DNA from: Candidatus Gastranaerophilales bacterium
GTDB taxonomy: Bacteria > Cyanobacteriota > Vampirovibrionia > Gastranaerophilales > Gastranaerophilaceae
NCBI GenBank assembly: GCA_944325005.1
Contig: CALUYO010000001.1
Span: 62,001 to 126,000 of the forward strand
Direction of reading: 5' to 3'
DNA length: 64,000 nt
The notes under the pieces: generated by a model
Databases searched by the model: none
What the model was told of the DNA's origin: nothing
What the model saw: the letters and a program-made list of their open reading frames with translations, nothing else
In this document: piece by piece, positions 9,200 through 60,119 of the stretch
How positions within the stretch are numbered: the stretch's first letter is position 1
Layout of the letters: each line of letters opens with the position of its first letter
Made by a program: the position numbers and the translations under genes

Positions 9200-9252
9200 A
9201 TTCCCTCCGTATAAAATTTATAATTACAAAAAATTTATTTATATTTAAAACA

Positions 9253-9278: not shown

Positions 9279-9287
9279 ATATTAATT

Positions 9288-9361
<74 letters not shown>

Positions 9362-37913: not shown

Positions 37914-40514
37914 TTATGAATATGCCCCTTTATAAATATATAATATCTTTTCAATTTCTTCTATTAACAACTCTGGAATTTTTTTATTTGTTCTAAAATA
38001 TTCAATATTTTTATATAACCATTTTAATGTAGCAATTTCGTCCATATTTATATTATCAATAAGATGTTTCTCGGCTTCAGTTTTTATTTCAAATAATTTT
38101 ACAATAGTAGAACGGGATAAACCTAAAGTTATCATCGACATTTGAGTTTTATTCTCAATTCCATATTCAAGAAGAATTTCAATATCATTATCATCATAAA
38201 TTAAATCAAAATTGCCACTCTGTTCATAATAAAAATTCAATACATCTATATAGCATCGTAATAGTTTTGGTACCAAATATCTAGCATAATCATCAATATC
38301 TTTAAATACCTGACGAACTGATAAATTAAAATTTTCATTTTTATAATATTTTCTTCGAGTGTCAATAATTACAGAAAAATTTTGAAATTTTATCCAACGT
38401 GAAGTAAGTAAAGCAACATATTTAATATGCTTTTCATTTATTAAATTTGTATTAAAATAATTATGCATTCTGCTTAAAAAACCAATAAAACTACCAATTA
38501 TTATATCATCATTTTTAAAATCCACTAAATACCTTTTAGGATCTTCAGGATGTCTGTTTTTAAAATATTCTAATAATTTTTGCATTGAATAGTGATATAT
38601 TATAGGGTGTTTTTCTAAAATATTTTTAGGAATTTCAATTTTTTTGGAGTATTGGTTTAAGACATTATTAAGTATTAAAATTTTATCTTGTCCAAAGGCA
38701 ATTTTTACTTCTTTATTTTTCCCTATATCGCCATATTTTAAAAATTGTGTATATAAATATCCAATTGTTGCTTCAACACTATTACGTTCATCCACATTAT
38801 CAAATTTAACTTTATTAAAATCATTAGTCAAAGCTTGAATTATTTGATTAAAATTTGTACACAAAACCTTTTGTATACTTCTTTCGACATTTGTTTCTTC
38901 TTTTTTTGTAGGGGCTTCATCCCAATCTATATAAAAAATATTTCCGTAAAATTCTTTTCCTAAACGTCCTGCCCTACCTACAAGATTAAATAAATCAGCG
39001 GTAGTCATATTTAATGTTTTAGATCTTTTGGGATTTTTTATAAATATATTTTTACATGATAAATTGACCCCTTCTAGTAAAGTAGATGTACATATCAAAT
39101 TCCTAATAATTTTTTTATTAAATAAATCTTCAATTTTTGCTCTGATTATTTGCGGCATACTACCATAGTGAAAAGCAATTCCTTTTTTTAAATATCGAAT
39201 TAAATTAAAATCTTTATGAATTGTTTCCTTACAAAGTTGAATTAATTTTATTATATCTTCATTATTTTCAACAATATAATTTGTTTTCTTATAAATTAAT
39301 TCAGCTATTTTTTCAGCATCAGAAGGATAATTTGCATATATTAAATTATTATTATCATTAATAGTGATAATATTTACAAAATTAGCTAATATTTTTGGAA
39401 TAGATGTTCCATTTATTTTTTCTTCTAATATAATTTTTGCAATTATAACAAATTTTTCATCATATAATGTACATATATTCCATTCTAACGGTTTCCCCTT
39501 AATTTTTTCAATTTTGAAAACATTTTGATTTATGGCCATTAAATTACTTTTTAAAAATTCTGTTTCCGGATATATTTCTTTAGGATTTTTAACAAATGGA
39601 CTTGCAAATATTATTTTTGTTTCCTGTGAATTATTCTTTACCCTTTCTATTACTGCTTCTAATAATACTCCTCGTTGGTTATCACCTATTTTTTGAGCTT
39701 CATCTATAAAAAGAATTTTAAATTTAGTATTAGAATTTTTAGATAAAAAAGCATTCATCCTTTCCTGAGTGAAGATGTATATAACCTTCTTTTTCCCTAA
39801 AATATTACCATTTCGAAATGGCATTGTTTCAATATAAACATTATCAATATCGTTCTTTAAATCCTCAGTCAAATCTTTCTCATATTGATTAATTAACGCT
39901 CTTGTCGGAACAATAATTGCAACATTTACGGCATTATCATTTGTAAATTCCAAATTTTTAATTATCCATTGCCTAACAATAAAAGATTTCCCAGATGAGG
40001 TCGGGGCAGATATTGAAAGTAATTTGCAGTCTGGTTTGGAACTCTCTTTTATAAACTGTTTTTGAATAGGATTACAAAGAATAGTATTATCTCTAACTTC
40101 AATTGAATATTCATTTTCTCTTTGTAATTTTTGTAATGAAAGTTTTAATGGTAAATAATATTCAATATTTTTGCTTAACAAATTATTTTTCTTTGCCAAA
40201 TTTATAGAAGGATTATTTAATAGAGAATCGACAAGAATATAAGCATAATCTTTTTCAGTAGAATTCCCAAATTCAAATGTAAATTGAGCAATCCGAAGAG
40301 CTTTTTCTTTTAAATCATCATCATCTGTTTGTATAAAAATATTTGCACATTTTAATAAATATTGTAATTCAGGTGTTTCAATTGATTCAAATTGGATATT
40401 CGGTATATGCTTTATTTGTTCAATTGCTAATTTTATACATAAATTTTTATATTCATCATTAAATTTTTTACTTTGAATTAAATCTAAAGCAAGTTCTTCA
40501 CAAAAGTTTTTCAT
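37914..40514 (-). CDS. hamB: Hachiman-like helicase HamB
   Basis: This 866-residue superfamily 2 DEAD/DEAH-type helicase has Walker A 'SAPTSSGKSFIV' (about 166), 'VPTRALINQYEKDL' (motif Ia), Walker B DEAQ in 'ILFIDEAQKIGDN' (about 267), 'CTSTLLEGVNLSC' (motif V) and 'NLVGRAGRLGKEF' (motif VI). The helical C-terminal 250 residues have no obvious nuclease motif. It starts 1 bp after the stop of a DUF1837 gene, the exact gene pair of the Hachiman anti-phage system, where the helicase senses or loads on DNA and licenses HamA. Confidence 0.82.
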   Translation of the reverse strand: MKNFCEELALDLIQSKKFNDEYKNLCIKLAIEQIKHIPNIQFESIETPELQYLLKCANIFIQTDDDDLKEKALRIAQFTFEFGNSTEKDYAYILVDSLLNNPSINLAKKNNLLSKNIEYYLPLKLSLQKLQRENEYSIEVRDNTILCNPIQKQFIKESSKPDCKLLSISAPTSSGKSFIVRQWIIKNLEFTNDNAVNVAIIVPTRALINQYEKDLTEDLKNDIDNVYIETMPFRNGNILGKKKVIYIFTQERMNAFLSKNSNTKFKILFIDEAQKIGDNQRGVLLEAVIERVKNNSQETKIIFASPFVKNPKEIYPETEFLKSNLMAINQNVFKIEKIKGKPLEWNICTLYDEKFVIIAKIILEEKINGTSIPKILANFVNIITINDNNNLIYANYPSDAEKIAELIYKKTNYIVENNEDIIKLIQLCKETIHKDFNLIRYLKKGIAFHYGSMPQIIRAKIEDLFNKKIIRNLICTSTLLEGVNLSCKNIFIKNPKRSKTLNMTTADLFNLVGRAGRLGKEFYGNIFYIDWDEAPTKKEETNVERSIQKVLCTNFNQIIQALTNDFNKVKFDNVDERNSVEATIGYLYTQFLKYGDIGKNKEVKIAFGQDKILILNNVLNQYSKKIEIPKNILEKHPIIYHYSMQKLLEYFKNRHPEDPKRYLVDFKNDDIIIGSFIGFLSRMHNYFNTNLINEKHIKYVALLTSRWIKFQNFSVIIDTRRKYYKNENFNLSVRQVFKDIDDYARYLVPKLLRCYIDVLNFYYEQSGNFDLIYDDNDIEILLEYGIENKTQMSMITLGLSRSTIVKLFEIKTEAEKHLIDNINMDEIATLKWLYKNIEYFRTNKKIPELLIEEIEKILYIYKGAYS

Positions 40515-40515
40515 T

Positions 40516-41538
40516 TTAAACTCCTAATTTTTTCTTAAAAGTTTCACGAAAACTATCAACACAACTCATTGGAATAAAAAAGACATTTATATTTATATTT
40601 TTAATATTATTATTTATTTTTTCTTCTTTAAATATTGTAATCCAGGATTCAATTTGAGACATTATACTTTTAGCATTTTGTTCATAATCATAACCATCAT
40701 ATTTCTTCTCATTAAAACCTACCAGACACAAGCCTCTAACTTCTGTAAATTCTCTACATTCAACTCTATTCGGATTGAAATATTCTTTCAGTTTTTTTGT
40801 TAATTCGATATTATTACCTATATCTAAATAAGAATTTAATAAACTTAATTCCAGTTGTTCTTTTTCCTCTCTTTTCAATAATGGAGCAATACTTGCTAAA
40901 CATTTTTTAATTGCAGTATTAACCTTTTTGTAAATTTTCACCTCTGAATAATATAATGCCAATTTAGAATTATCCTCGGAAATTCCGATATGAATCCCAT
41001 CAGCGCCATGAAAATGCATACTTCCGGAAGTTTTTAAATTCATTTTACATAATGCTTGTGGCAATTTTAAAATTTGTTCAGCAAGCAAAAATAATAATTC
41101 TTCACCCCCTTCACCACTTTTTGAAACTCCTTCATCTTGTTCTAAGTTTTCATTTTTTATAACTTGATTTCTACGTTTCCAATAATCAACATATTTTTGT
41201 TTCGCTTTTTCCATTAATTCTAATACATAATTCGTATTACCCGTAGCCATTGCATCTTCAATTTCGGATTTTGGAATTGTATATTGAATAATTTGATTAA
41301 ATAAAATTTGTGCTAATTCTTCATAACAATAATCAGTTTTACTTAAATTTGGTTTTAAACAATAAGAATAAATATTTGTGTTAATATCGTCGATATTTTT
41401 CTTCTCCTCATTAAGAGTTATTTTAAAAATATTTGCAAGACAACATTCCAAAGATTTATGAAAATCTTCACCTTTTAATAAGTACGGAATGTACTCATTA
41501 AATTGATTTAAGGTTTCAATATTATTATCTTTACTCAT
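40516..41538 (-). CDS. hamA: Hachiman-like DUF1837 effector HamA
   Basis: This protein has 340 residues from the ATG at 41538. The DUF1837 core is 'FHGADGIHIGISEDNSKLAL' followed by 'YYSEVKIYKK' (about 175-200). The E-x-K in SEVK together with the Asp of GADG matches the PD-(D/E)XK nuclease arrangement of HamA. In Hachiman, HamA is the DNA-degrading effector released by HamB. I reject the ATG at 41589: TATAAT (41545-41550) lies 6 nt before the ATG at 41538, so the mRNA should be leaderless. Confidence 0.8.
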   Translation of the reverse strand: MSKDNNIETLNQFNEYIPYLLKGEDFHKSLECCLANIFKITLNEEKKNIDDINTNIYSYCLKPNLSKTDYCYEELAQILFNQIIQYTIPKSEIEDAMATGNTNYVLELMEKAKQKYVDYWKRRNQVIKNENLEQDEGVSKSGEGGEELLFLLAEQILKLPQALCKMNLKTSGSMHFHGADGIHIGISEDNSKLALYYSEVKIYKKVNTAIKKCLASIAPLLKREEKEQLELSLLNSYLDIGNNIELTKKLKEYFNPNRVECREFTEVRGLCLVGFNEKKYDGYDYEQNAKSIMSQIESWITIFKEEKINNNIKNININVFFIPMSCVDSFRETFKKKLGV

Positions 41539-41591
41539 AAAATTATTATATGCTAAAAATATACAAAATGCTGTATAAGTAAGAACCAAGC

Positions 41592-42128: not shown

Positions 42129-42629
42129 CTACAGATTTTCAGGATTATTTAGGAAATAATCTTCTAAGATTTTACGCAAAGTATCTTTGTAGAATTTCGT
42201 ATCTTCTTCACTTGTCTCAGGCTCAAAATCCTCAAATGCCTTATTCTCAATCATCTGCCAGAAATCAAAGTTCAGCAAATTCAAGTTCTGCAGAAGCATT
42301 TTCCGAGAAGGTCCGTCATTTTTAATAGCATCTTGCACTATTTTTTGTGCGAAAAGCTGTATAAAAGAAATTTTTTCACGGTTTCCGTTTTCATTAGTAA
42401 TCGTAGCTTCCCGTATAAATGCCAGACGCAACGCTTCCATAATTGTTTTAGGCAGCACTTTTTTCTTACGCCCTCTGGGGTTACCGCTTACACCCTTTTT
42501 AAATTGTCCGCTGACAGGCGGTTTTTTGTACCCAACTTCGTACAATTTATCTTTGATTTCTTGACGTTTCTCATTATCCTTATGTAACGAGTCTTGTATT
42601 TCGAGAAATTTATTAATTTTCTTTTCCAT
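42129..42629 (-). CDS. DUF5681 phage-type protein
   Basis: This protein has 166 residues from the ATG at 42629 (GAGGAG upstream). The conserved 'GQFKKGVSGNPRGRKKKVLP' (about 41-60) defines DUF5681, commonly encoded next to terminase or methylase genes in prophages and integrative elements. The rest is helical and acidic. Its start overlaps the ParB-methyltransferase gene, so the two form one unit. The molecular role is unknown; a basic GRKKK patch suggests DNA contact. Confidence 0.8.
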   Translation of the reverse strand: MEKKINKFLEIQDSLHKDNEKRQEIKDKLYEVGYKKPPVSGQFKKGVSGNPRGRKKKVLPKTIMEALRLAFIREATITNENGNREKISFIQLFAQKIVQDAIKNDGPSRKMLLQNLNLLNFDFWQMIENKAFEDFEPETSEEDTKFYKDTLRKILEDYFLNNPENL

Positions 42630-44001
42630 ATTCAATCTCCTCATAATTCTTAACTAATTTCGCAGTTTTTCCAGTCTCTTTTTCCCAGCGATAGATACAC
42701 ACATCAACATATCTTGGGTCAATTTCAATTAGCCGTGCCCTACGTTTACAGCGCTCCGCAGCTAAAAGAGTAGAGCCTGAGCCACCAAAACAATCTAAAA
42801 CAATATCATTTTTGGAGGACGTATCCAGTAAAATATCATGAAGCATAGACACTGGCTTAACAGTAGGATGGAGCTTCAGCAACTTTAAAGATTCTGGGTT
42901 GGTTGCTCTTACTCCCGGATAATTCCAAACATTTGTGCGATACCTACCATATTTCCCTAGTTGAATATGATTTTGGTGCTTGGCTTCACCGTTTTTGAAT
43001 ATAGGAATCATTTCGTGTTGACTTCTATACATTGAGCCCATACCACCTTGGCCCTTATCCCAGATTGCTATATCTTTTAATTCGGTATAATTCTTTTTAC
43101 CCTGAGTCAGCAAAATATTAATATTCCGCCAGTCCATAAAGATATAATGCAGTGAACCGTTAGATGAAAATTGTACCAGATGTTGCATAAAGCCTGAGAT
43201 AAATTCTGCAAACTCAGCTTCTGTCATCTCTCCTGATGCCATTGCAAACTCATCATGCTTAATCTTGCCCGAGCCGCATACGTGGCCTTTAATTTTGCAG
43301 TTATATGGGGGATCCGTGATAACAATCTGTGCAAGTTCGCCTTGCATAAGTATTTCAAAAGCCTTTTGCAATAATGAATTTGCACATAGGATAAAGTTGT
43401 CACCTAATCGCCATAAATCCCATAAATTAGCTCTTTTCGGGATATTTGCATCAAGCCAGTCTGCAGTTTCTTGTTCAGAATTTTTGACTTCACTCGCTTC
43501 AGAATCGTTATTTAGGAAGATTTTATCATAATCGACAGTCTCAAAACCTAAATCTTCAAAATTGATGTCAAATTTTCCTAAATTTTCGATGACTTCCTGC
43601 AAATTTGCGTAATTCCATTCGCTGTCTTCTGCTATTCTGTTGTCTAAAATTCTGATAGCTTCAGCTTCTTCATCAGTCAGATCCTCAAGAATTATCACCG
43701 GAATTTGACAAAATCCAAGCTTTTTTGCGGCTAAAAGCCGCAACTCCCCCGCTATAATTTTTAACTTTTTATCAATCAGAATAGGGTTTGTAAAACCAAA
43801 CTTTTTGATAGCATTTATTAATTTTTGAAGCTGCTTTTGCGAATGTTTCCGTAAGCTTTTATTGCTTGCAATAATTAAAGCAATATCAATCATTTGTAAA
43901 TTGTTGTTTGGATGCTTCCCTTCAAGTACCACTTTTCTAAAGTGGCGCATACTTCTCTCGATAACTTCAGGATTCTGGAAAATTGAAAGTTTGTCTTCCA
44001 T
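42613..44001 (-). CDS. ParB-domain DNA methyltransferase fusion (phage-type)
   Basis: This 462-residue protein has an N-terminal ParB/Sulfiredoxin-like domain (about 50-145, 'IIAGELRLLAAKKLGF' and 'NRIAEDSEWNYANLQ') joined to an N4/N6 DNA methyltransferase. The catalytic motif is 'VITDPPYNCKI' (about 225), and the SAM motif is 'VLDCFGGSGSTLLAAER' (about 398), giving the DPPY-first beta-class order. Such fusions are typical of prophages and modify DNA without a cognate nuclease. AAAGGAG precedes the ATG. GTTCG / CGAAC arms lie upstream near 44027-44046. Confidence 0.88.
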   Translation of the reverse strand: MEDKLSIFQNPEVIERSMRHFRKVVLEGKHPNNNLQMIDIALIIASNKSLRKHSQKQLQKLINAIKKFGFTNPILIDKKLKIIAGELRLLAAKKLGFCQIPVIILEDLTDEEAEAIRILDNRIAEDSEWNYANLQEVIENLGKFDINFEDLGFETVDYDKIFLNNDSEASEVKNSEQETADWLDANIPKRANLWDLWRLGDNFILCANSLLQKAFEILMQGELAQIVITDPPYNCKIKGHVCGSGKIKHDEFAMASGEMTEAEFAEFISGFMQHLVQFSSNGSLHYIFMDWRNINILLTQGKKNYTELKDIAIWDKGQGGMGSMYRSQHEMIPIFKNGEAKHQNHIQLGKYGRYRTNVWNYPGVRATNPESLKLLKLHPTVKPVSMLHDILLDTSSKNDIVLDCFGGSGSTLLAAERCKRRARLIEIDPRYVDVCIYRWEKETGKTAKLVKNYEEIEYGKEN

Positions 44002-46588: not shown

Positions 46589-46746
46589 ATAGCCTTCCTT
46601 TATTCTTTATTAAGAACATATTTTTCTATAAATTACCATATTTAAAATAGTATTACAATATTAAAAACATAAAAATCATCTATTTAGATGTCTTTAATAC
46701 GGTTTATAAGACCTCAATATACTATTATCCTCTTAAAGAGGTGGAA

Positions 46747-47064
46747 ATGAATATAAAAAAAGACTTCGGTTTGAGAATAAAAGAATTACGAAATAAAAAA
46801 GGAATTACGCAGTATCAACTTGCAGAAATGGTTGGGATTGATCCAAAACATATGAGTCATATTGAAACAGGTAGAAGTTTTCCTAAAGCTGATTTAATTG
46901 AAAAATTTGCTAAGGCATTAGAAATTGAGTACACTTTGTTATTTCAGACTGAACATTTACAGGATCGAGATGTTTTATTGAAAAAAATTAACTCTTTCTT
47001 AGCAAAAGTAAGTGATAATGACTTACAAGTAATATATAAATTAATATCAAATTATATAAATTAA
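46747..47064 (+). CDS. XRE-family transcriptional regulator
   Basis: This protein has 105 residues from the ATG at 46747; GTG at 46741 is an alternative. The helix-turn-helix 'GLRIKELRNKKGITQYQLAE' and 'GIDPKHMSHIETGRSFPKAD' fill residues 8-60, followed by a short helical tail. It may control its own promoter and the divergent zinc-ribbon operon. The ribosome-binding AGAGG lies in a small hairpin CCTCT-TAA-AGAGG. The stop overlaps the convergent FtsZ-like gene by 4 bp. Confidence 0.85.
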   Translation: MNIKKDFGLRIKELRNKKGITQYQLAEMVGIDPKHMSHIETGRSFPKADLIEKFAKALEIEYTLLFQTEHLQDRDVLLKKINSFLAKVSDNDLQVIYKLISNYIN

Positions 47065-47639
47065 AAATCATTTAATTCTCTTATTGCAAGTCTTGTCATG
47101 AGCTTGTCAGACATCAAAAACAATTCTCCTAAAGATATTTTTTTATCTGTGCAAATTTCAACAGGAATTGCTTTGTTTGCATACTTTTTAATTTCTTTTA
47201 ATGCTTTTCTTGCGTTGTTATTTCTGATATTTCCTTCAAACCCAAAAGGCATTGTGTAAATTACTCTAGTATAAATATTTTGATCACTTATAAGTTTTAA
47301 TAGTGAAACCATTCCGCCAGAGCTTATGCCCCCGCCTAGTGAAACCAATATTATTATATCTACTGAACCTTTTATAAAGTTACTAATTTTTCTTTTATTT
47401 GAATGCACACAAGCTTCCCCGAGAGAATAATTTTGATAACAACCTGCTCCATCTACAATTTTATCTCCAACTTTTATTTTGTGTGGTGTTGCTGAATATT
47501 TAAGAGTTTCGCTATCTGAATCTATACTTAAAAATTCTGTACCCTCCTCTTGAGCTTTTGGATATAAATAATTCATTGCACTAATTCCACCTTTGCCAAG
47601 TCCAATTACAATTGTTTTATTTGTCATATCATTTTTCAT
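47061..47639 (-). CDS. short FtsZ/tubulin-like GTPase-domain protein
   Basis: This 192-residue protein follows the FtsZ N-terminal domain closely in order: 'IVIGLGKGGISAMNYL' (loop T1), 'EFLSIDSDSETLKYS' (T3 region), 'GKG..' replaced by 'GDKIVDGAGC', the tubulin signature position 'SLGGGISSGGM' (about 100-110, usually GGGTGTG), then 'VIYTMPFGFEGNIRNNNA'. It stops before the C-terminal catalytic-loop domain of FtsZ (about 380 residues in FtsZ). It may not polymerise alone and might bind or interfere with FtsZ. GAGG precedes the ATG. Confidence 0.7.
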   Translation of the reverse strand: MKNDMTNKTIVIGLGKGGISAMNYLYPKAQEEGTEFLSIDSDSETLKYSATPHKIKVGDKIVDGAGCYQNYSLGEACVHSNKRKISNFIKGSVDIIILVSLGGGISSGGMVSLLKLISDQNIYTRVIYTMPFGFEGNIRNNNARKALKEIKKYANKAIPVEICTDKKISLGELFLMSDKLMTRLAIRELNDF

Positions 47640-47719
47640 CTGCGTTGCCTCATCAAGTATTGTTCCTACTTACAGTAATCGCTCTTATTAACCTTAATTA
47701 GAACTGTTTAAATTAAATT

Positions 47720-47736
47720 TGTATCAATTGGACACA
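47720..47736. promoter_or_regulatory. operator-like imperfect palindrome, copy 2
   Basis: TGTATCAATTGGACACA differs from copy 1 (34804-34820) at one base. It lies 45 bp before the macro-domain gene. Confidence 0.4.
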
Positions 47737-47781
47737 AAAGTGATAGAATAAACTAAAAGGTAATTAAGTAAGGGGTAAATT

Positions 47782-48261
47782 ATGACAGAAATAGAAATTT
47801 TAAAAGGTGACATAACAAAATTAAAAGTTGATGCAATTGTAAATGCCGCGAATAGAACCTTACTTGGTGGCGGCGGTGTTGATGGAGCTATTCATCGTGC
47901 AGCAGGTAAAGAATTACTTGCAGAATGCAGAACCCTAAACGGTTGCGAAACAGGACAATCCAAAATTACAAAAGGTTATAACTTGCCTGCCAAATATGTA
48001 ATCCATACGGTAGGCCCTGTTTGGTATGGTGGCAACAAAAACGAGCCGGAACTTTTGAAATCCTGTTATACAACAGCACTAAATCTTGCAAAAGAAAATA
48101 ACATCAAAACAATAGCATTTCCTGCAATATCCTGCGGTGTTTACCATTTCCCGATAGATAAAGCATGCAAAATTGCTTACGATACAGTGAATGAATTTAT
48201 AAACAAATATGATTGCTTTGAAAAAGTTATTTTCATTGATATCAATGCCCCCCATAATTGA
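47782..48261 (+). CDS. macro-domain ADP-ribose hydrolase (YmdB-like), C-terminus disrupted
   Basis: This 159-residue protein shows the macro-domain motifs '[20 protein letters not shown]' (about 16-35) and '[15 protein letters not shown]' (about 113), as in O-acetyl-ADP-ribose deacetylases. It removes ADP-ribose from targets. The last strand '[10 protein letters not shown]' then hits a stop, whereas the family continues with a final helix. Removing one C from the C6 run near 48250 continues the frame as '[11 protein letters not shown]'. It lies 240 bp upstream of darT. AAGGGG precedes the ATG. Confidence 0.85.
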
Positions 48262-48500: not shown

Positions 48501-49472
48501 ATGGTAAAAGACAAATTTAATGATTTTTTTATCTACTTGCAAAAAAAATATAATTTTGAAGGCTTTTTTCATACTACAAGTTTTGAAAATTTTATAAATA
48601 TTTATAAAACTAATAAATTATATTCTCGGAATTATTTAAAAAATAATAATATTAATTTTGAAGATATTGCAAATCAAGATGTTGTTACTAAACAAAGAAA
48701 AGAACATGATTATGTAAGGTTTTATTTCCGCCCTAAGACTCCAACAAATTACCGAAATGAAGGTATTAAATGTACAAAAAGTTTAAATAAAAAAAATTGC
48801 ATTGATTTAGGTAATGGAATTCACAAAGATGAAGAATATAATAAACAGCAGTCAGCTAATCCAGTAGTCATGATTTTTAATTATTCGATTGCCCAAAATA
48901 AAAACTGTAAATTTAAACAATTTAATAAAATGAATCAAGAACTAGTTAATTCTATACAAGAACTTGAAAATTGGGATCTTATATTTGCTGAAGGAAAATA
49001 TGAAGATGATATTCGAAAAGCATATGAAAAACCTTTTAGGATGGCAGAATTTTTATATCCAGATTTTATAGAAACTAAAGAAATTAAAAAAATTATATTT
49101 AGAAGTAAATGTGATAAAGAAAGAGCTATACAACTACTAGGAAACGATAATAGATTTATAGTAGATACAAACTATTTTTGTAACAATTATTTATATGTAA
49201 AAGATTATACATTATCTAGACATGCTACTTCATTAAACATTTGCATTGAGTATAATATTGGAGAACAATTATATAAGGATTCTGTGGATATAGAAAATTA
49301 TAAGCATGAACTCATTTTTTATAAAAATGGGGAAAAAATTAAAAGTTATCAAGATATAAAATTTAATAAAAAATTAGCAATTGCAAATTTTTTGATTAAA
49401 ATTAATTTTGATTGGGATTATATGTGTTATTATATAAATAACTTTGAATGTATAAGGAAAGATAATGATTGA
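48501..49472 (+). CDS. darT: DarT-like DNA ADP-ribosyltransferase toxin
   Basis: This 323-residue DUF4433 protein has an N-terminal 'GFFHTTSFENFINI' (NAD-binding His), 'HDYVRFYFRPKTPTNY' (family hallmark Y-V-x-F-Y-F-x-P) and 'RMAEFLYPDFIE' (about 178) with the predicted catalytic Glu. DarT ADP-ribosylates single-stranded DNA. The C-terminal 100 residues lie beyond the usual 210-residue core and are unassigned. It overlaps darG by 8 bp, as expected for a toxin-antitoxin pair. No ribosome-binding site is visible. Confidence 0.82.
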   Translation: MVKDKFNDFFIYLQKKYNFEGFFHTTSFENFINIYKTNKLYSRNYLKNNNINFEDIANQDVVTKQRKEHDYVRFYFRPKTPTNYRNEGIKCTKSLNKKNCIDLGNGIHKDEEYNKQQSANPVVMIFNYSIAQNKNCKFKQFNKMNQELVNSIQELENWDLIFAEGKYEDDIRKAYEKPFRMAEFLYPDFIETKEIKKIIFRSKCDKERAIQLLGNDNRFIVDTNYFCNNYLYVKDYTLSRHATSLNICIEYNIGEQLYKDSVDIENYKHELIFYKNGEKIKSYQDIKFNKKLAIANFLIKINFDWDYMCYYINNFECIRKDND

Positions 49473-50136
49473 ATATTTTGAAGGTACAGTATTTAACACT
49501 GATGCTGGTGCAATTGTAAATACTGTTAATTGCGAAGGTTATATGGGAGCTGGAATTGCTCTTGAATACAGTTTAAGATATCCTGAAATGTATCAGGATT
49601 ATCAAAAGAAATGTAAAGAAAAAAAGATTAAAACAGGATTTGTAGATTATTATTTATACAATAATATAACAATTGTCAATTTCCCAACTAAAAACTTATA
49701 TAAATTCCCATCAAATATTAAATGGATTAAAGAAGGTTTAATAAATTTTGTTGAAACGTACAAGAATTATAATATTACATCTGTTGCATTTCCAAAATTA
49801 GGAACTTCAAATGGAGGTTTGAATTGGGAAGAAGTAAATAATATAATGGAATATTATTTGAAAGATATAGATGCAAAAGTGTATATTTGTTTAGATAAAA
49901 TAAAAGAGCCTGCAGGTAAAGAAAAACAAATGATAGATAGCATTAATAAAATTTCTATTCAAGAAATAAGCCATTATGTTAAATTAACAGAAAAACAAAA
50001 ATTATCATTGCAAAAGCATATTCCTTATCAAAGATTTTGGCAAATTTCTCAAACGCAATCTATTGGTAAAACAACATATAAGAATTTATTTAAACATTTT
50101 TATGAACAAAATTATACTCAAACAAAACTTTTTTAA
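49465..50136 (+). CDS. darG: DarG-like macro-domain antitoxin
   Basis: This 223-residue protein has an N-terminal macro domain: 'AGAIVNTVNCEGYMGAGIAL' (about 11-30) and 'AFPKLGTSNGGLNWEEV' (about 109). It reverses DNA ADP-ribosylation by DarT. The C-terminal 80 residues are helical and basic, corresponding to the DarT-binding tail, though shorter than in long DarG proteins. Together with darT it forms a toxin-antitoxin and anti-phage module. Confidence 0.83.
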   Translation: MIEYFEGTVFNTDAGAIVNTVNCEGYMGAGIALEYSLRYPEMYQDYQKKCKEKKIKTGFVDYYLYNNITIVNFPTKNLYKFPSNIKWIKEGLINFVETYKNYNITSVAFPKLGTSNGGLNWEEVNNIMEYYLKDIDAKVYICLDKIKEPAGKEKQMIDSINKISIQEISHYVKLTEKQKLSLQKHIPYQRFWQISQTQSIGKTTYKNLFKHFYEQNYTQTKLF

Positions 50137-51081: not shown

Positions 51082-53862
51082 ATGTCTTATCAAAGTGAAG
51101 CAGAGTTAGAGAAGCAATTAATAAACAAGTTGTCTTCTCAAGGATATAGCTATATAAAACTTGAGGATTACAAAGCTCTTGAAAATAATTTTAGAGTAGA
51201 GCTTAACAACATTAATAAAAGCATCCTTGAAGGTGTTGATTTATCAGATAAAGAGTTTGAAAGAATCCTGATATATCTTAACGGTAAAACAGTTTATCAA
51301 TCTGCAAAACAACTTAGAGATCAGTTCATTTTAGATAGAGATAACGGCAAGCAAGTATATATAAATTTTCTTAATGAAAATCCTGAAAATAATGTTTATC
51401 AAATAACAAACCAAGTAACCGTTCAAGGCAAATATGTTAATAGATATGATGTTACTATCTTGATAAACGGTTTACCTCTTGTTCAAATTGAACTCAAAAG
51501 ACGTGGGGTAGATATTAACCAAGCTATAAATCAAATAGACAGATACAGACAGCATTCTTTTAAAGAGCTTTTTAAATATATTCAAATTTTTGTAGTTTCT
51601 AATGGCGTTGAAACTCGATATTTCACCAATACTAACGAGCCCAGAATAATGAAGTCTTTGACTTTTTATTGGACAAGAGAAGATAACGAGCGTATGAACA
51701 TACTTGAAAACTTCTCTTCTGAATTTTTAGAGAAAAACCGCCTGTTAAAAATGATAACTAAGTATATGGTTATCAATGATACTGATAAATGCTTAATTGT
51801 AATGCGACCTTATCAGGTTTATGCAACAGAAGCACTTATAAGACAAGCTCTAAACACTAATTCTAACGGCTATATTTGGCATACAACAGGTTCAGGAAAA
51901 ACATTAACAAGCTGGAAATGTGCAAACTTGCTAAAGAACGAATCAAGTATAGCAAAAGTTTTCTTTTTGATAGATAGAAAAGACCTTGATACTCAAACGA
52001 TTGAAGAATTTAACAAATTTGAAAAAGATTGCGTTGATAATACAGACGATACAAAGGTTCTTGTAAAACAAGTTAAAGATCCAAATAAAAAACTTATCGT
52101 AACAACTATTCAAAAGATGGCAAAAGCTCTAAGTACTAAAAAATATTTAGAAGTAATGGACAAATATAAAAACGATAAAGTTATTTTCATTATAGATGAG
52201 TGCCATCGTTCACAATTTGGTGAAATGCATAACCAAATAAAAAGATACTTTGTCAATGCTCAATATTTTGGTTTTACTGGAACACCTCGTTTTGTAGAAA
52301 ATAAATCTCAAGATGGTAGAACAACTGCCGATATGTTCCAAAAACTTCTTCATGCATACTTAATTAAAAATGCTATCCATGATCATAATGTTTTAGGGTT
52401 TTCGATTGAATACATCCAAACTTATGAGGGTGAATATGACGAAAATGATGACACTAAAGTAGAGGGTATTGATACTGAAGAAGTCTTTATGGCTGATGAA
52501 AGAATTAATATGATTGCAAATCATATCATTAATCACCATTCTCTGAAGACAAGAAATGGTAAATATACTTCTATTTTTGCGGTTTCATCAATTCCTCTTC
52601 TGATAAAATATTATGACACTTTTAAAAAGTTAAAAGATGAAGGCAAGCATAATTATAATATTGCAGCTGTTTATTCTTACGGTAGTAACGAGGATTTATC
52701 TAATAAAGAAGAGCATTCAAGGGATAGCTTAGAAAGAATTATAAAAGATTATAATCAAATGTTTGAAACAAACTTTGATACAAACACTTTTAGTGCTTAT
52801 AATAAAGATATTTCAAACAGATTAAAGCAAAAGAAAAACCCCCAGATTGATATTCTGTTAGTTGTAAATATGTATCTTACAGGGTTTGATTCAAGACCTT
52901 TGAATACCTTATATGTTGATAAAAACTTGGATTGGCATAACTTATTGCAAGCATTTTCAAGGACAAACAGGGTTGAAAAAGAGACAAAACCGTTTGGGAA
53001 TATTGTTTGTTATAGAAACCTTAAAAAGAAAACAGATGATGCTATAAAACTATTCAGCCAAACAGATAAAGCAGAAGAAGTCTTAGTTAAAGATTATGAC
53101 TATTATAAAGACCAATTTGAACAATACGCAGCTGAACTTTATAAAATGGCTTCAACTCCCCAAGCTGTTGATGGCTTGATGGATGAAAACGACCAAGCAA
53201 AATTTGTCATAGCTTTTAGAGAATTGTCAAAGATACTTTTAATCCTAAAAACCTTTGTTGAATTTAGTTGGGAAGATTTAGAGCTTACAATGACACAACA
53301 AAGTTATGAAGATTATAAAAGTAGATACTTAACAATAAATGACAATATAAGAAAAGTAAAACAAGCTGAAAAGGTTTCTATACTTAATGACATAGATTTT
53401 TCTATTGAAATTATTCAAACTGATAAAATTAATGTCGCATACATTATGAACCTTTTAAGAAACATTGATTTTACAGACCACGAACAAAAAGAGAAAGACA
53501 TTAAGAATATATATAAGGAGCTTGATAGAAGCGACAACCCTGAATTAAGAAGAAAAGTTGATTTAATTAAACAATTCATAGGTGAAGTTGTTCCAAAAAT
53601 GTCTGCTGATGATTCAGTTGATGAAGAATATTCTAATTTTGAAACAGCTCAAAGAAATAAGGAAATTGAAGACTTTGCTTTTGAAAACAAACTTGAACCT
53701 GATTTCATAAAGAATTCCATAAATGATTATGAATTTACGGAAATTTTAGACAAGGACAAAATCAGAGAAGGAATTACAAGTGAAATTCCATATTTCAAGA
53801 AAAAATCCTTAGTTGAAAAGATTATGGAATTTATCATAAATAATGTTACTAAATATCAATAA
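51082..53862 (+). CDS. hsdR: type I restriction endonuclease subunit R
   Basis: This 926-residue protein is the nuclease and translocase of a type I R-M complex. The N-terminal PD-(D/E)XK domain includes 'GLPLVQIELKRRG' (about 131-143). The helicase has Walker A 'WHTTGSGKTLTSWK' (about 269), DEAH-type box 'IIDECHRSQFGEM' (about 371), 'FGFTGTPRF' and 'LLQAFSRTNRVEKE'. The C-terminus is helical. GGGGAG precedes the ATG. It starts the hsdR-DUF262-hsdM-cargo-hsdS unit; gene spacing of 1-15 bp suggests a single transcript. Confidence 0.95.
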   Translation: MSYQSEAELEKQLINKLSSQGYSYIKLEDYKALENNFRVELNNINKSILEGVDLSDKEFERILIYLNGKTVYQSAKQLRDQFILDRDNGKQVYINFLNENPENNVYQITNQVTVQGKYVNRYDVTILINGLPLVQIELKRRGVDINQAINQIDRYRQHSFKELFKYIQIFVVSNGVETRYFTNTNEPRIMKSLTFYWTREDNERMNILENFSSEFLEKNRLLKMITKYMVINDTDKCLIVMRPYQVYATEALIRQALNTNSNGYIWHTTGSGKTLTSWKCANLLKNESSIAKVFFLIDRKDLDTQTIEEFNKFEKDCVDNTDDTKVLVKQVKDPNKKLIVTTIQKMAKALSTKKYLEVMDKYKNDKVIFIIDECHRSQFGEMHNQIKRYFVNAQYFGFTGTPRFVENKSQDGRTTADMFQKLLHAYLIKNAIHDHNVLGFSIEYIQTYEGEYDENDDTKVEGIDTEEVFMADERINMIANHIINHHSLKTRNGKYTSIFAVSSIPLLIKYYDTFKKLKDEGKHNYNIAAVYSYGSNEDLSNKEEHSRDSLERIIKDYNQMFETNFDTNTFSAYNKDISNRLKQKKNPQIDILLVVNMYLTGFDSRPLNTLYVDKNLDWHNLLQAFSRTNRVEKETKPFGNIVCYRNLKKKTDDAIKLFSQTDKAEEVLVKDYDYYKDQFEQYAAELYKMASTPQAVDGLMDENDQAKFVIAFRELSKILLILKTFVEFSWEDLELTMTQQSYEDYKSRYLTINDNIRKVKQAEKVSILNDIDFSIEIIQTDKINVAYIMNLLRNIDFTDHEQKEKDIKNIYKELDRSDNPELRRKVDLIKQFIGEVVPKMSADDSVDEEYSNFETAQRNKEIEDFAFENKLEPDFIKNSINDYEFTEILDKDKIREGITSEIPYFKKKSLVEKIMEFIINNVTKYQ

Positions 53863-53873
53863 AGGTTATAAAT

Positions 53874-55709
53874 ATGAGAAAAATTGATGGAAAAGAAAAG
53901 ACATTAAGAGAATTGCTCCAAAACCAGCAATATACTATACAATATTATCAAAGAGAATATAGATGGGGAACAAAGCAAATACTAGAATTACTTTCAGATT
54001 TAACAGATGAGTTCTTATCTTATTATAGTGAAAACGATGAAAGAAAGGCTGTTAAAAATTACGGATATTATTATTTGGGTAGTATTATCAGGACAAATAA
54101 TAATGCGGGGAATGCTATTATTGATGGGCAACAACGTCTAACATCAATAACATTATTGTTAATATATATAAATAACCTACAAAAAGAGCGAGAAGATAAA
54201 GTTAATATTGAAAACTTGATATATTCTGAAACTTATGGTGAGAAATCTTTTAATTTATCAGTTCCAGAAAGAGAGGTATGTTTAAATGCTCTATTCAATA
54301 ATCAAAACTTTGACATATCCAACCAAAATGATAGTATTAAAAATATTTATAATCGATATCAAGATATAAAAAACAATCTATCTGATGATATTATCGGGAA
54401 AGCTCTTCCTTATTTTACTGATTGGTTAATTAATAATGTTTATTTTGTCGAAATTGTTGCTACTACAGAACAAGATGCTCACAAAATATTTGTGACTATG
54501 AATGATAGGGGGCTTAGTTTAACTCCTGCTGAAATGTTAAAAGGCTATATCTTATCTGAAATAGAATTAGATGAAACTCGTGATAAAGCTAACCAAAAAT
54601 GGAAAGAAGTAATTCAATCTATAAATGATTTGAGTGAAGATAATAAAACATTAAGTGAAGACTTTTTCAAGAATTGGTTTAGAGCACAATATGCTGAAAG
54701 TATAAGAGAAAATAAAAAGGGAGCAAAACCCGAAGATTTTGATTTAATTGGTACAGAATTTCATAAATGGGTAAGAGATAATCATGAAAAACTGGGTTTA
54801 GCTTCAAAAAAAGATTACTCCCAGTTTACATTAAAAACGTTACCAACTTTTGCAAATATTTATATAACATTAAAAAAAGCTTCTACCGAATTAAATAAAA
54901 ACTATCCGGAAGTCTTTTATAATGCTAGTAGAGATTTTACATTTCAGTATCAACTAATTTTAGCAAGTATTGATGCAGATGACACTCAAGAAATAATTTC
55001 CAAAAAAATTAAAATTGTATCAAAGTTTATCGATATTTATATAACTCAAAGAGTTGTGAACTATAAAACCGTAAATTATTCAACAATTAAAAATGCGGTA
55101 TTTAATATATCTAAGAAAATAAGAAGGCAGTCTATAGACAGTTTAAAAAGTATTTTAACTAATGAACTTATTAATCTGGAATATCAATTAAATACTTTTA
55201 AAGATTTTGCTCTCAATAATTTTACTAATAGGTATATTAGACACATGTTGGCACGAATGACTAATTATATAGAAGAGTGTTGTGACGTTCCACAGACATC
55301 TTTTGAAAAATATATTGATAGAAATAGAACAAATGGTTATGACATAGAACATATAATTCCAGACAACTATGAGATGGTAAAAGACTATTTTGACAATGAA
55401 AAAGATTTTTATGATACAAGAAATAATTTAGGGAATTTAATTCTTTTACCTGCAGATAAAAACAGAAGTATACAAGATTTACCATATACTGAAAAATTAA
55501 AAACATATGCTGGAGATAATATTTTAGCGAAGTCTTTATGTGATGGATTTTATGCAAATAATCCAAGATTCAAACAATGGTGTGCAGAAGAAAATATTAA
55601 TTTCCAACCAATAAAAGAATTTACTAAAATTTCAATATTTGAAAGGCAAAAAATTTATGAACAACTTGTAAATAAATTATGGAATATTGAATTAATTAAC
55701 CAGATATAA
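53874..55709 (+). CDS. DUF262/DUF1524 protein (GmrSD-like) inside the R-M operon
   Basis: This 611-residue protein has an N-terminal DUF262 domain, 'YQREYRWGTKQI' and 'AIIDGQQRLTSITLLL' (about 82-97, the DGQQR NTPase motif). The C-terminal DUF1524 has an HNH-type site: 'YDIEHIIPDNYEM' (about 488), then 'NNLGNLILLPADKNRS'. GmrSD-type proteins cut modified phage DNA; others (for example BrxU-like) act beside BREX or R-M. It sits 11 bp after hsdR and 9 bp before hsdM, so it is expressed with them. Confidence 0.85.
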   Translation: MRKIDGKEKTLRELLQNQQYTIQYYQREYRWGTKQILELLSDLTDEFLSYYSENDERKAVKNYGYYYLGSIIRTNNNAGNAIIDGQQRLTSITLLLIYINNLQKEREDKVNIENLIYSETYGEKSFNLSVPEREVCLNALFNNQNFDISNQNDSIKNIYNRYQDIKNNLSDDIIGKALPYFTDWLINNVYFVEIVATTEQDAHKIFVTMNDRGLSLTPAEMLKGYILSEIELDETRDKANQKWKEVIQSINDLSEDNKTLSEDFFKNWFRAQYAESIRENKKGAKPEDFDLIGTEFHKWVRDNHEKLGLASKKDYSQFTLKTLPTFANIYITLKKASTELNKNYPEVFYNASRDFTFQYQLILASIDADDTQEIISKKIKIVSKFIDIYITQRVVNYKTVNYSTIKNAVFNISKKIRRQSIDSLKSILTNELINLEYQLNTFKDFALNNFTNRYIRHMLARMTNYIEECCDVPQTSFEKYIDRNRTNGYDIEHIIPDNYEMVKDYFDNEKDFYDTRNNLGNLILLPADKNRSIQDLPYTEKLKTYAGDNILAKSLCDGFYANNPRFKQWCAEENINFQPIKEFTKISIFERQKIYEQLVNKLWNIELINQI

Positions 55710-55718
55710 GGAGTAGCG

Positions 55719-57266
55719 ATGAGTACAGTACAAATACAAAAGGAACAAAAATCTGAACTTCATACAAAGCTTTGGGAAATGGCAAACGAGCTTCGTGGAA
55801 ATATGGAGGCTTATGAGTTCAAAAACTACATTTTGGGCTTAATCTTCTATCGCTACTTGTCTGAGAGAACCCAAAACTATATCAATGAGCTTTTAAAAAA
55901 CGATAATATCACTTATGAAGAGGCTTGGAAAAGAGATGACTACAAAGAAGCCTTGAGCGAAGACTGCTTAGACCATCTTGGATATATCATAGAACCTAAG
56001 TATCTGTTTTCAAATTTGATTAAAATGATTGCAAAGGGTGAATTTGGTATAGATTACCTTGAAAAAGCCATTTCATCGATTACAGAATCCACAATAGGAC
56101 AAGAATCCGAACAAGACTTTGACGGTCTTTGGGAAGATATGGATTTAAAGTCCTCAAAGCTTGGCAAAATGGTAAGCGAAAAATCTAAACTTATTGCTAA
56201 AATCTTGAATACTATTAATACAATAGATTTTCACCTTGAAAATATGGAACTCGATGTTCTTGGTGATGCTTATGAATACCTTATCGGTATGTTTGCACAA
56301 ACTGCAGGCAAAAAAGGCGGAGAATTCTATACTCCTGTTAATATGTCAAAACTTGTTGCAAGACTTGCAACAGTCGGTTTAACAGAAGCAAGAACGGTTT
56401 CAGATTGTGCTTGCGGTTCAGGCGGTTTGCTTTTACAAGTTGGTAAATACTGCAAAGTTGGTCAATACTTCGGTCAAGAACTTACAAGTACAACCTACAA
56501 CCTTGCAAGAATGAATATGTTGCTCCATGGTATAGACTACAAAAAATTTGAAATTCTAAATGTTGATACTCTTGAAAAAGACCAAAATCCTGATAGACAA
56601 TATACAGTTCAAGTCGCAAACCCGCCTTATTCGACTTCTTGGTCTGCAAACCCTAAGTTTTTAGATGATGACAGATTTTCTGTTTATGGAAAACTTGCAC
56701 CAAAATCCACAGCCGATTTTGCCTTTGTGCAACATATGATTTATCATATGGCAGAGGATGGAAGAATAGCTGTATTATTACCTCATGGAGTTTTGTTTAG
56801 AGGTAATGCAGAAGAAACAATAAGAAAACATATTGTTAAAAATATGAATTACTTGGACGCAGTAATTGGTTTGCCTGCAAATTGTTTCCAAGGGACTTCA
56901 ATCCCAGTATGTTGTTTAATCCTAAAAAGAGAAAGAAACGGCAACAGCGGAAATATTTGTTTCATAGATGCTTCAAAATACTATGTTCAAGGTAAAAACC
57001 AAAACTCTATATCTGATGAAGATATTGAAAGAATAGTTTCAGCTTATTCTGAACGTAAAGAAATTGAAAAATTCTGCCATATTGCAACTATGGAAGAAAT
57101 AGAAGAAAACGACTACAACTTGAACATTCCTCGCTATGTAGATACTTTTGAACCTGAGCCCGAAGTTGATTTACAAGCTGTAAAGGAAAGCATTAAAACC
57201 CACAAAACCAATATCCAAAAACTAGAGCAAGAAGTCCAAACTTACTTGGATGAGTTGGGGGTGTAG
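55719..57266 (+). CDS. hsdM: type I DNA methyltransferase subunit M
   Basis: This 515-residue protein has an N-terminal HsdM helical domain (about 10-150) and then an N6-adenine methyltransferase with SAM motif 'DCACGSGGLLLQVGKY' (about 228) and catalytic 'VANPPYSTSW' (NPPY, about 299). The C-terminal coiled helix ends 'VQTYLDELGV', which contacts HsdS. The last 30 bp of the gene recur, with changes, at 60089-60118 and in part at 58851-58866. AAGGAG precedes the ATG. Confidence 0.95.
   Translation: MSTVQIQKEQKSELHTKLWEMANELRGNMEAYEFKNYILGLIFYRYLSERTQNYINELLKNDNITYEEAWKRDDYKEALSEDCLDHLGYIIEPKYLFSNLIKMIAKGEFGIDYLEKAISSITESTIGQESEQDFDGLWEDMDLKSSKLGKMVSEKSKLIAKILNTINTIDFHLENMELDVLGDAYEYLIGMFAQTAGKKGGEFYTPVNMSKLVARLATVGLTEARTVSDCACGSGGLLLQVGKYCKVGQYFGQELTSTTYNLARMNMLLHGIDYKKFEILNVDTLEKDQNPDRQYTVQVANPPYSTSWSANPKFLDDDRFSVYGKLAPKSTADFAFVQHMIYHMAEDGRIAVLLPHGVLFRGNAEETIRKHIVKNMNYLDAVIGLPANCFQGTSIPVCCLILKRERNGNSGNICFIDASKYYVQGKNQNSISDEDIERIVSAYSERKEIEKFCHIATMEEIEENDYNLNIPRYVDTFEPEPEVDLQAVKESIKTHKTNIQKLEQEVQTYLDELGV
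57246..57266 (+). repeat. hsdM-end repeat, copy 1 (native)
   Basis: TTGGATGAGTTGGGGGTGTAG encodes the last hsdM codons. Copy 3 at 60089-60118 matches the last 30 bp at about 26 of 30 positions. Copy 2 at 58851-58866 matches 14 of 16. Confidence 0.8.
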
Positions 57267-57267
57267 A

Positions 57268-57798
57268 ATGTGTATCAATGAGATAAAATTGTTTTCAGAT
57301 ATTCTAAGTAACTTAAGTATTATAATTGCGGCAATTATCGCTTGTACGACTTTCAAATTTAAACTTGGTGTTGATGAAAGAAAATTATATTTAGATAATG
57401 CCAATAAGGTAAGAGAAGTACTTAGCAATGTAATGAAATATGCTAGAATTGATGATGAACATTTAGTTCAAATTGGTATAGCTTTTGAAGAAGCTTCTTT
57501 ATATTTGAATAAGGATATAGTTGATTTTATAGATGAAATTCGTGAATCTTTAATACGATTGTTTTGTATTCAGCTTGAATTAACGAATTTGCCAGTAGGA
57601 GAAAAACGTTCTAAACTTTGTGAAGAAATGGGGGATATCCTTAAAAAATTAGGAGATTATTCCAAAGAGTCTACTATGATATATAGAAGACATATTGTTT
57701 CTGAGCCATTAGAAGTATTTTACAAAGTTAAAAAGAAACTCAATGACTTCAAAAAAGAGAAAATACAAGATATAAAAAGCGGGAGAAAAAATCAATGA
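57268..57798 (+). CDS. small membrane-anchored protein, cargo module A
   Basis: This protein has 176 residues from the ATG at 57268, one base after the hsdM stop. The single N-terminal helix (about 8-28, 'LSNLSIIIAAIIACTTF') is followed by a helical cytoplasmic domain rich in charged residues. No family is recognised. It overlaps the HEPN gene by 4 bp, so the two are translationally coupled and may act together, for example as an anchor or regulator of the HEPN protein. Confidence 0.65.
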   Translation: MCINEIKLFSDILSNLSIIIAAIIACTTFKFKLGVDERKLYLDNANKVREVLSNVMKYARIDDEHLVQIGIAFEEASLYLNKDIVDFIDEIRESLIRLFCIQLELTNLPVGEKRSKLCEEMGDILKKLGDYSKESTMIYRRHIVSEPLEVFYKVKKKLNDFKKEKIQDIKSGRKNQ

Positions 57799-58847
57799 AT
57801 TTTGCTAGAGCATTAAAATATCATGTATTTGTTCCTTTGTATAATATTGAAGTTGTAGATAATCTCATAAATACAACGATTTTTGACAATTATAAGATTA
57901 TAAAAAGTGAAAATTTAGAATTAGAATATGGACAATATCTATATAAAGAAGATTATTTCGCTAGACAACTTTTTCAAGATATTTCTGAAAGACATCCTGA
58001 TAAATTACTATGGTATCCTAATGCTCAATATGTCTTGTGTACAGAATTTATAATTAAAGATGATAAAGAAATATATACCCAAAAAGTCCATGAAACTAGA
58101 CAAAATGTATGTAACATAGTTTTTGCATTAAGGCTTATTAGTAAAGGACGTTGTCAAATTTACAACGGGTATTATTTTACGGAAGGATATTCTGCCTGTG
58201 TTCAATTTAAAGTATCATCTCAATTATTAAATATAAATCTTGCACATAGAACATTTAAAAATACTTTAGTTGTTGAAAATTTGTATAATTTAACTGTTAA
58301 TAAATTAATTGAAGCCACAAATTTATTTAAAATATTACAAACATTACCTAAAGATAGCTACGCCGTGCCTGTTGTATATTTTAACAAGTATTATGATTCA
58401 CTTTTGCCTCATGAAAGAATTATTCAACTTGCAATATTCTTAGAAAGTACATTATTAGCTGGACAAGCAGATGAATTAAACTATCGGTTATATCTAAGAG
58501 CAAGTGCATTTCTAGGAAAAGATGTTAGCAAAATACTAAAACTGTTTTATGCTGTCCGTAGCCAAATAGTTCATAATGGGCATATTATGAAAAATAAAGA
58601 TGGAAAAGATATTATTAAAAAACTAAAAAAACTTATAAATTCAGATAGGGAAGATGAAACAGAATTGCTATTCTACTTTGTGAATGATTATGTTGAACCA
58701 ATTATTAGGGACTTATTCCATAAATCAATTTTGTTAATTAATTCTGGTGCAATTAATAACTTTGAAGATTTAACACAAAAACTTGATACTTTCATTATGA
58801 AACAAATTACCAAGGAAAGTTTTGAGATTAGTAATAACGATAAATAA
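57795..58847 (+). CDS. HEPN-domain protein, cargo module A
   Basis: This protein has 350 residues. The C-terminal helical domain carries 'LFYAVRSQIVHNGHIM' (about 251-266): R-x4-H is the HEPN RNase motif, in the context typical of ApeA-type HEPN proteins ('LNYRLYLRASAFLG' upstream). The N-terminal 200 residues are alpha/beta and unassigned. Abortive-infection RNases often look like this, and the location inside an R-M locus fits. Nuclease activity is a prediction. Confidence 0.7.
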   Translation: MNFARALKYHVFVPLYNIEVVDNLINTTIFDNYKIIKSENLELEYGQYLYKEDYFARQLFQDISERHPDKLLWYPNAQYVLCTEFIIKDDKEIYTQKVHETRQNVCNIVFALRLISKGRCQIYNGYYFTEGYSACVQFKVSSQLLNINLAHRTFKNTLVVENLYNLTVNKLIEATNLFKILQTLPKDSYAVPVVYFNKYYDSLLPHERIIQLAIFLESTLLAGQADELNYRLYLRASAFLGKDVSKILKLFYAVRSQIVHNGHIMKNKDGKDIIKKLKKLINSDREDETELLFYFVNDYVEPIIRDLFHKSILLINSGAINNFEDLTQKLDTFIMKQITKESFEISNNDK

Positions 58848-58850
58848 AAT

Positions 58851-58866
58851 TTGGATGAGTTAGGAG
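58851..58866 (+). repeat. hsdM-end-like repeat, copy 2
   Basis: TTGGATGAGTTAGGAG resembles the hsdM end TTGGATGAGTTGGGGG (14 of 16). It lies just before the SIR2-like gene and supplies part of its ribosome-binding site. Confidence 0.55.
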
Positions 58867-58875
58867 GTGAGAAAG

Positions 58876-60042: not shown

Positions 60043-60118
60043 ATTAAGATTTAAAAATAAAGGAATATTTCAATTTATATTGAAACAGCAAGCCTACTTG
60101 TATAAGTTGGGGGTGTAG
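60032..60118 (+). pseudogene. recombination scar ORF: hsdS start joined to hsdM end (28 codons)
   Basis: The frame begins MKFKLRFKNKG, close to the real HsdS start (MTKPKLRFKDKNG); the DNA AAATTAAGATTTAAAAATAA matches hsdS at 61617-61636 except one base. It ends 'QQAYLYKLGV' stop, matching the HsdM end 'VQTYLDELGV'; about 26 of the last 30 bp agree. AGAGGA precedes the ATG. The simplest reading is a fusion between one cluster's hsdS start and another cluster's hsdM end. Confidence 0.75.
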
Positions 60119-60119
60119 G

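Follow-up and report, generated by a model that had tools for sequence, protein, structure and literature searches.

The window, by which is meant the whole 64,000-nucleotide stretch of contig CALUYO010000001.1 analysed here, carries on its minus strand (47061..47639) an ATG-initiated open reading frame of 192 aa, designated half-FtsZ, that comprises the FtsZ GTPase (N-terminal) domain only and ends within helix H7, as judged from the frame itself, its matches to PF00091 and to FtsZ in the PDB, and an alignment. A preliminary description of this DNA had placed the frame here and had likened its product to FtsZ through the GTPase domain, and at the level of sequence the likeness holds. The protein matches the Tubulin/FtsZ GTPase domain of Pfam (PF00091) at 5.2e-21 (76.2 bits, cut-off 33) over profile positions 2-180 of 190, and its residues 8-164 match FtsZ chains in the PDB with a best phmmer E-value of 2e-18, values that put the resemblance far above chance. 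Against the NCBIfam model for FtsZ, TIGR00065, the match (1.2e-19, 70.8 bits) falls below the equivalog cut-off of 295.2 and covers profile positions 17-168 of 353 only. Identity with the host's own FtsZ is 31% over residues 10-183.

What half-FtsZ has in common with FtsZ (TIGR00065) is the GTPase domain with its T1, T2, T4, T5 and H7 elements, whereas the T7 loop, the C-terminal domain, the linker and the C-terminal peptide are lacking. The protein stops 14 residues past the H7 aspartate and, because it ends in helix H7, it has neither the T7 loop (the NxDxxD synergy loop) nor the C-terminal domain FtsZ_C (PF12327), whose absence had been recognized from the start. The T4 glycine loop reads SLGGGISSGG at residues 100-109 (47313..47342, minus strand; translation and alignment) in place of the GMGGGTGTG of FtsZ, and where TIGR00065 has the signature GGGTGT[GS] there is GGGISSG at residues 102-108. 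This altered signature, singled out in the preliminary description, is present but is not peculiar to the window protein: Ser occupies the G108 position (S. aureus FtsZ numbering, used for all family positions) in 13 of 33 relatives, for example in the motif GGGTSCG, and an altered glycine motif is usual among them. Searches of half-FtsZ against the PADLOC models gave no match at 0.001, and the best match in PHROGs (E = 0.19) was unrelated.

Immediately downstream lies a gene for a 107-aa XRE/HTH_19 regulator (46741..47064, plus strand; HTH_19 9e-13), which is convergent with half-FtsZ, overlaps its stop by 4 bp, and is 37-42% identical to XRE genes at seven other half-FtsZ loci. Since the two genes converge, they do not form an operon, and a type II toxin-antitoxin pair was rejected on the same ground, the genes not being co-directional. 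Upstream of the half-FtsZ start is a 21-bp inverted repeat, TTTGTATCAATTGGACACAAA (47718..47738), that is kept at a related locus, L004. A second copy with 2 mismatches occurs at 34802-34822, making two in the window, the first included, against 0.12 expected by chance. The repeat also marks where the sequence common to the window locus and L004 ends. From its sequence and position it may be an operator; as a family-wide operator it was rejected, being present among the fetched loci in the window and L004 only.

The gene sits in a variable stretch of about 43 kb (roughly 31.5 to 74.5 kb, window plus flank) between a conserved HD-domain gene (30734..31540, minus strand) on the left and, on the right, an XRE gene upstream of recA that starts at window+74478, the hotspot as a whole spanning 30734-74482. 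Both edges are set by synteny with the genomes G138, G196 and G006 of the same genus, where the corresponding interval measures 3.7 kb, 21 kb and 2.2 kb. The region upstream of recA is an integration or defence hotspot in the genus, ranging from 2 to 43 kb in four genomes. The G+C content of the island is 28%, against 35% in the left part of the window. On the minus strand it encodes a Hachiman pair (37914..41589; HamB 37914-40514, HamA 40516-41589), a small-terminase-like DUF5681 protein (42129..42644; PF18932 1.1e-15), which is an element marker common to other half-FtsZ loci, and a ParB_N protein with an N6/N4 DNA methyltransferase domain (42613..44001; PF01555, PF02195), a marker also found at the second half-FtsZ locus of this genome. 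On the plus strand follow a stand-alone macro-domain protein divergent from half-FtsZ (47782..48261; PF01661 2.4e-49), a DarT DNA ADP-ribosyltransferase toxin that represents defence cargo (48501..49472; PF14487 4.9e-20), a DarG-type macro antitoxin (49465..50136; NF048014 1.6e-47), and a type I restriction-modification cluster of HsdR, HsdM and HsdS with GmrSD-like and SIR2-like genes inside (51082..62762). A serine recombinase just past the window edge (window+64302-65882) ends the island. The neighbours first described, namely the overlapping XRE regulator, DarTG at 48501-50136 and, further away, Hachiman and type I restriction, were all recovered.

The DarG antitoxin, at 223 aa, matches only the first part of its 338-position model, and the DarT toxin exceeds its model in length. 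A functional tie of half-FtsZ to DarTG or to the macro-domain gene was rejected after comparison with L004, the only close relative, which carries an SMC-like ATPase gene and others instead on its one readable flank, the other flank ending at the contig end. The link to DarTG therefore looks incidental.

Three FtsZ-type genes occur in this genome: a normal FtsZ (406-aa frame, G000:C1:259941), the window half-FtsZ, and, on contig 8 (G000:C8), another half-FtsZ, 181 aa long, which lies within an element carrying a WYL regulator, a UvrD-nuclease and a recombinase. The sole FtsZ_C (PF12327) match in the genome belongs to the 406-aa frame. A search of eight genomes for a second FtsZ_C domain found the domain in normal FtsZ only, so that no split-FtsZ partner is available there to complete half-FtsZ, and the idea of a split FtsZ with its other half encoded elsewhere was rejected for these eight genomes. 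The host is a member of the Gastranaerophilales: beyond the compared genome set, the nearest sequence came from a MAG of that order, whose contig retains 50 residues of the protein, 96% identical.

A family of FtsZ halves

Homology searches of the taxonomic family, followed by a profile search of genomes with extra matches and a reading of the loci, showed that the window gene has many counterparts. Among 383 screened genomes of this Gastranaerophilales family, at least 24 hold short FtsZ homologues (short meaning below 260 aa), at least 33 in all and at 26 loci, the counts of homologues and genomes being lower bounds because only genomes with more than one match in the family searches were followed up. 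These proteins align with the GTPase domain from end to end, and in 31 of 33 the end point falls 11-22 residues past D187, the H7 aspartate; the other two extend 31 and 71 residues. When 19 half proteins are combined into a profile, its positions 3-187, which span the entire GTPase domain, match solved FtsZ chains at 4e-54, and a six-sequence profile of half proteins matches host FtsZ at 1.7e-36. In a quick tree the half proteins group together, with two label changes against 16 when labels are shuffled; the window protein forms a long branch there, its exact place being unsure. The profile matches predict an FtsZ fold for the half proteins, in keeping with the preliminary description. Five longer relatives (278-346 aa) have the T7 region, degenerate in most.

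Conservation within the family is concentrated in the GTP pocket and at the residues that face the T7 loop of a neighbouring subunit. G104 and P135 are kept in 33/33 members, D46, E139 and R143 in 32/33, and F183 in 26/33; D187 is kept in 19, with Asn there in nine more. The H6/H7 region is among the most divergent parts of the family, and the N166 position is gapped in 11 of 33 members. We propose to define the family by a GTPase domain that ends in H7 and keeps D46, R143 and the GGG of T4, all of which are found in the window protein. The window copy is nevertheless among the most divergent members, with Tyr at G72, Ser at N25, Glu at Q48 and N166 missing, changes that may weaken nucleotide binding or docking in this particular copy. 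Other half proteins are about 24-30% identical to it, a low likeness that does not require one common function for all.

The sequences are under purifying selection. Close pairs of half-FtsZ genes give dN/dS values of 0.11-0.36, a comparison of 50 codons between the window copy and that of L004 shows 4 synonymous and 2 non-synonymous differences, and a search for stop codons found none in any half-FtsZ frame. The common end point and the dN/dS values led to the rejection of a pseudogene or sequencing truncation for the family. Judged by its sequences, half-FtsZ is accordingly a selectively maintained family and no one-off truncation.

Two half-FtsZ genes are present at 9 of the 26 loci. At locus L110, the ends of two different half-FtsZ genes (8360-8905 and 8898-9569), placed back to back, overlap; a UvrD-nuclease and a WYL regulator adjoin this pair, which is a good candidate for a heterodimer.

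Neighbours of family members

Within 10 kb of half-FtsZ, a WYL regulator is found at 15 of the 26 loci, a UvrD/PD-(D/E)XK protein at 11, RtcB at nine, and a serine recombinase and an XRE gene related to that of the window at eight each; a second tubulin-family gene falls within this distance at nine. Seen from the whole genome, the best WYL match lay at the half-FtsZ locus in all seven genomes examined, and the UvrD-nuclease, present in six of the seven, lay at that locus in all six. Within the genus, the WYL gene occurs at 73% identity or more in exactly four genomes, which are those that hold half-FtsZ. Short loci around divergent WYL genes (34-52% identical) in six genomes of the genus contained no half-FtsZ, so that a WYL gene alone is no predictor of it. 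For the relatives, this genome's second copy among them, the link to WYL and UvrD is strong; it does not extend at close range to the window copy, whose nearest WYL gene is about 23 kb off and only 37% identical to the family-associated type.

Distribution beyond the taxonomic family

When 194 genomes were sampled across the phylum, the matches listed included half proteins from the window's own taxonomic family only. Most other genomes of the sample gave a single match and, again among the matches listed, these were full-length FtsZ frames. The 33 genomes of its genus yielded nothing that resembles the window protein more closely than FtsZ does. Most genomes of a sister genus (g7) give two matches, both full-length FtsZ frames, and so possess two FtsZ genes.

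Mobile-element collections were also searched. IMG/VR yielded nothing when scanned with the window protein and with the alignment, and, at the sensitivities used, neither this collection nor INPHARED or PLSDB gave a half protein. A phage origin was rejected, the tblastn matches fetched from the phage collection being ordinary full-length FtsZ next to cell-wall or other chromosomal genes. In five of these records (MT837026, MT835561, MT835527, MT839183 and MT835696) the ftsZ is an ordinary bacterial one accompanied by genes for division and the cell wall, and the records therefore look like bacterial contamination labelled as phage. Plasmid relatives were likewise rejected: the best PLSDB matches are mostly annotated FtsZ, and two that were examined are 402 and 320 aa long and no halves. 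The 320-aa protein, encoded on a Marinomonas algicola plasmid (L178:3968-4930), is FtsZ-like, annotated as hypothetical, and adjoins a gene for a PcfJ-domain protein.

A possible cap for FtsZ filaments

In the FtsZ filament, D46 and R143 on the GTP face of one subunit contact the T7 loop of the next, and a free monomer has been proposed to add via its GTP-bound top surface onto the bottom end of the filament (PMC8936486). The inhibitor MciZ is reported to cap that bottom end (PMC5624674). Having the top surface only, half-FtsZ would by its anatomy be a natural cap able to occupy the same end. A division inhibitor is the best-supported mechanism, since family members retain the GTP face together with the T7-facing residues and never have the other face, and we put the probability that half-FtsZ docks on host FtsZ by its GTP face, caps or sequesters it and stops division at roughly 0.45.

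The proposal runs as follows. Half-FtsZ, carried as cargo on mobile elements and in defence islands of Gastranaerophilales, would bind GTP in an FtsZ-type pocket and would dock by its GTP face (the 'top' surface) on host FtsZ where the latter exposes its T7/C-terminal face (the 'bottom' surface). With no bottom face of its own, it would make filament growth from that point impossible, and the capping or sequestration of FtsZ would delay or stop division. The trigger would probably be the element's sensing of phage infection, DNA damage or its own mobilisation. A WYL regulator, DriD, is known to switch on the division inhibitor didA after DNA damage (PMC4211646). More doubtful is the fuller picture of a self-contained element checkpoint, in which a WYL damage or infection sensor, a UvrD/PD-(D/E)XK helicase-nuclease and one or two half-FtsZ proteins capping host FtsZ filaments would act together. 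Against docking, it should be said that conservation of the pocket could reflect GTP binding alone.

In the main rival, half-FtsZ would act off the Z-ring as a GTP-dependent homodimer or heterodimer of its own, sensing GTP or regulating the neighbouring helicase-nuclease or other cargo as a defence or element-maintenance switch. Such a role fits the two half-FtsZ genes at nine loci, with the L110 pair back to back and overlapping, as well as the repeated presence of the UvrD/PD-(D/E)XK protein and the WYL regulator near family members and the conservation of the GTP pocket amid wide divergence of the remainder. However, conservation of the T7-facing D46 and R143 is as strong as that of the pocket, and roughly half of the other loci lack the nuclease neighbour, as does the window locus, where there is moreover a single half-FtsZ; on balance we regard this rival as a credible but unlikely account.

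Another way in which half-FtsZ could serve defence is by mimicking FtsZ, so as to soak up or report phage division inhibitors and trigger or support immunity. The defence-rich island around the window gene is suited to such a decoy or sensor, and there is precedent in CapRel, where a complex of host FtsZ and the phage inhibitor T7 Gp0.4 can trigger immunity (PMC13423816). Some inhibitors do bind the N-terminal domain, as CbtA does at the H6/H7 loop (PMC5624674), but that region is highly divergent in the family, with N166 gapped in 11 members. For Gp0.4, SulA and MciZ the binding site is on the T7/C-terminal side of FtsZ (PMC13423816, PMC5624674), and since this target face is missing from half-FtsZ, a decoy for inhibitors of that kind is unlikely. 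A mimic would also be expected to resemble host FtsZ more closely than the 24-31% identity seen, and the explanation as a whole is improbable.

Rated slightly lower again is a role confined to element maintenance, in which half-FtsZ would slow host division in favour of excision, replication or transfer and have no part in defence. Family members do travel with serine recombinases, ParB-methyltransferase, DUF5681/terminase-like and DUF2924 genes, and a serine recombinase forms the end of the window island. Yet half-FtsZ is absent from the G196 hotspot, where the same serine recombinase and terminase-like genes are present together with Hachiman, a ParB-methyltransferase, DUF5681 and DUF2924; half-FtsZ is therefore not essential for mobility. 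Moreover, this reading would share its biochemical step with capping and differ in the benefit alone. Finally, a decaying and functionless FtsZ fragment, which the truncation, the divergence and the pocket residues lost from the window copy might bring to mind, is very improbable, this reading being largely refuted for the family by the end point common to 31 of 33 members, the dN/dS values, the mostly synonymous differences between the window copy and L004 (which share their upstream region) and the stop-free frames.

Relation to known systems

As a cap, half-FtsZ is proposed to share with SulA, MciZ and T7 Gp0.4 the effect of blocking subunit addition at the T7 face (PMC13423816, PMC5624674). 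Those inhibitors have unrelated folds, whereas a half-FtsZ inhibitor would, on its sequence, be a piece of FtsZ itself. The proteins FtsZl1 and FtsZl2 (Makarova and Koonin 2010, PMC2875224) are, like half-FtsZ, non-canonical members of the FtsZ/tubulin superfamily, and FtsZl1 resembles it in that its FtsZ-like N-terminal domain is not followed by the usual C-terminal one. FtsZl1 differs in its long coiled coil and alpha-helical C-terminal domain and in the lack of T6-H7 (PMC2875224); half-FtsZ keeps H7 and has nothing beyond it, and the window protein, at 192 aa and ending in H7, departs from the published definition. The pairing of WYL genes with half-FtsZ relatives is comparable to DriD-didA of Caulobacter, in which a WYL regulator controls a division inhibitor after DNA damage, but DidA is a small membrane protein that acts on FtsW/I/N and is no piece of FtsZ (PMC4211646). 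For half-FtsZ, regulation by WYL is something that we infer from gene order only.

An FtsZ-like region also forms the N-terminal part of the chloroplast protein ARC3, which is long, carries MORN repeats and is nuclear-encoded. The window half-FtsZ differs from it as a bare domain on a mobile island. In its related setting, ARC3 inhibits Z-ring assembly (PMC13335998).

If the capping proposal is correct, half-FtsZ would be a natural FtsZ inhibitor that is built from FtsZ and spread by mobile elements, and it would link division arrest to a cassette of defence islands in a gut lineage that has received little study. The literature leaves open at which end an FtsZ filament grows, earlier capping mutants being in conflict with MciZ (PMC5624674), and half-FtsZ would offer a simple tool for addressing it, as its bare GTP face would bind one end only. 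Even if the mechanism is wrong, selectively maintained FtsZ halves on mobile elements, often in tandem, are new relative to the open-access papers searched, in which no description of such a family was found.

Further observations

In genome G012, a 198-aa half-FtsZ overlaps a 278-aa relative of FtsZ whose N-terminus is short and whose T7 region is degenerate (L039:7319-7915 and 7908-8744), and this pair sits among apparently chromosomal genes with no obvious mobile element. Beside serine recombinases, a ParB-domain methyltransferase is repeatedly found in combination with DUF5681 and a terminase-like gene (window 42129-44001, L040:6792-9915 and the G196 element). No capsid gene was seen in these elements, and the set may represent an undescribed kind of element. 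An RtcB RNA-ligase gene, for example L040:1585-2706, also recurs in the half-FtsZ elements (9/26 loci), and DUF1643 proteins occur at 14 of the 26.
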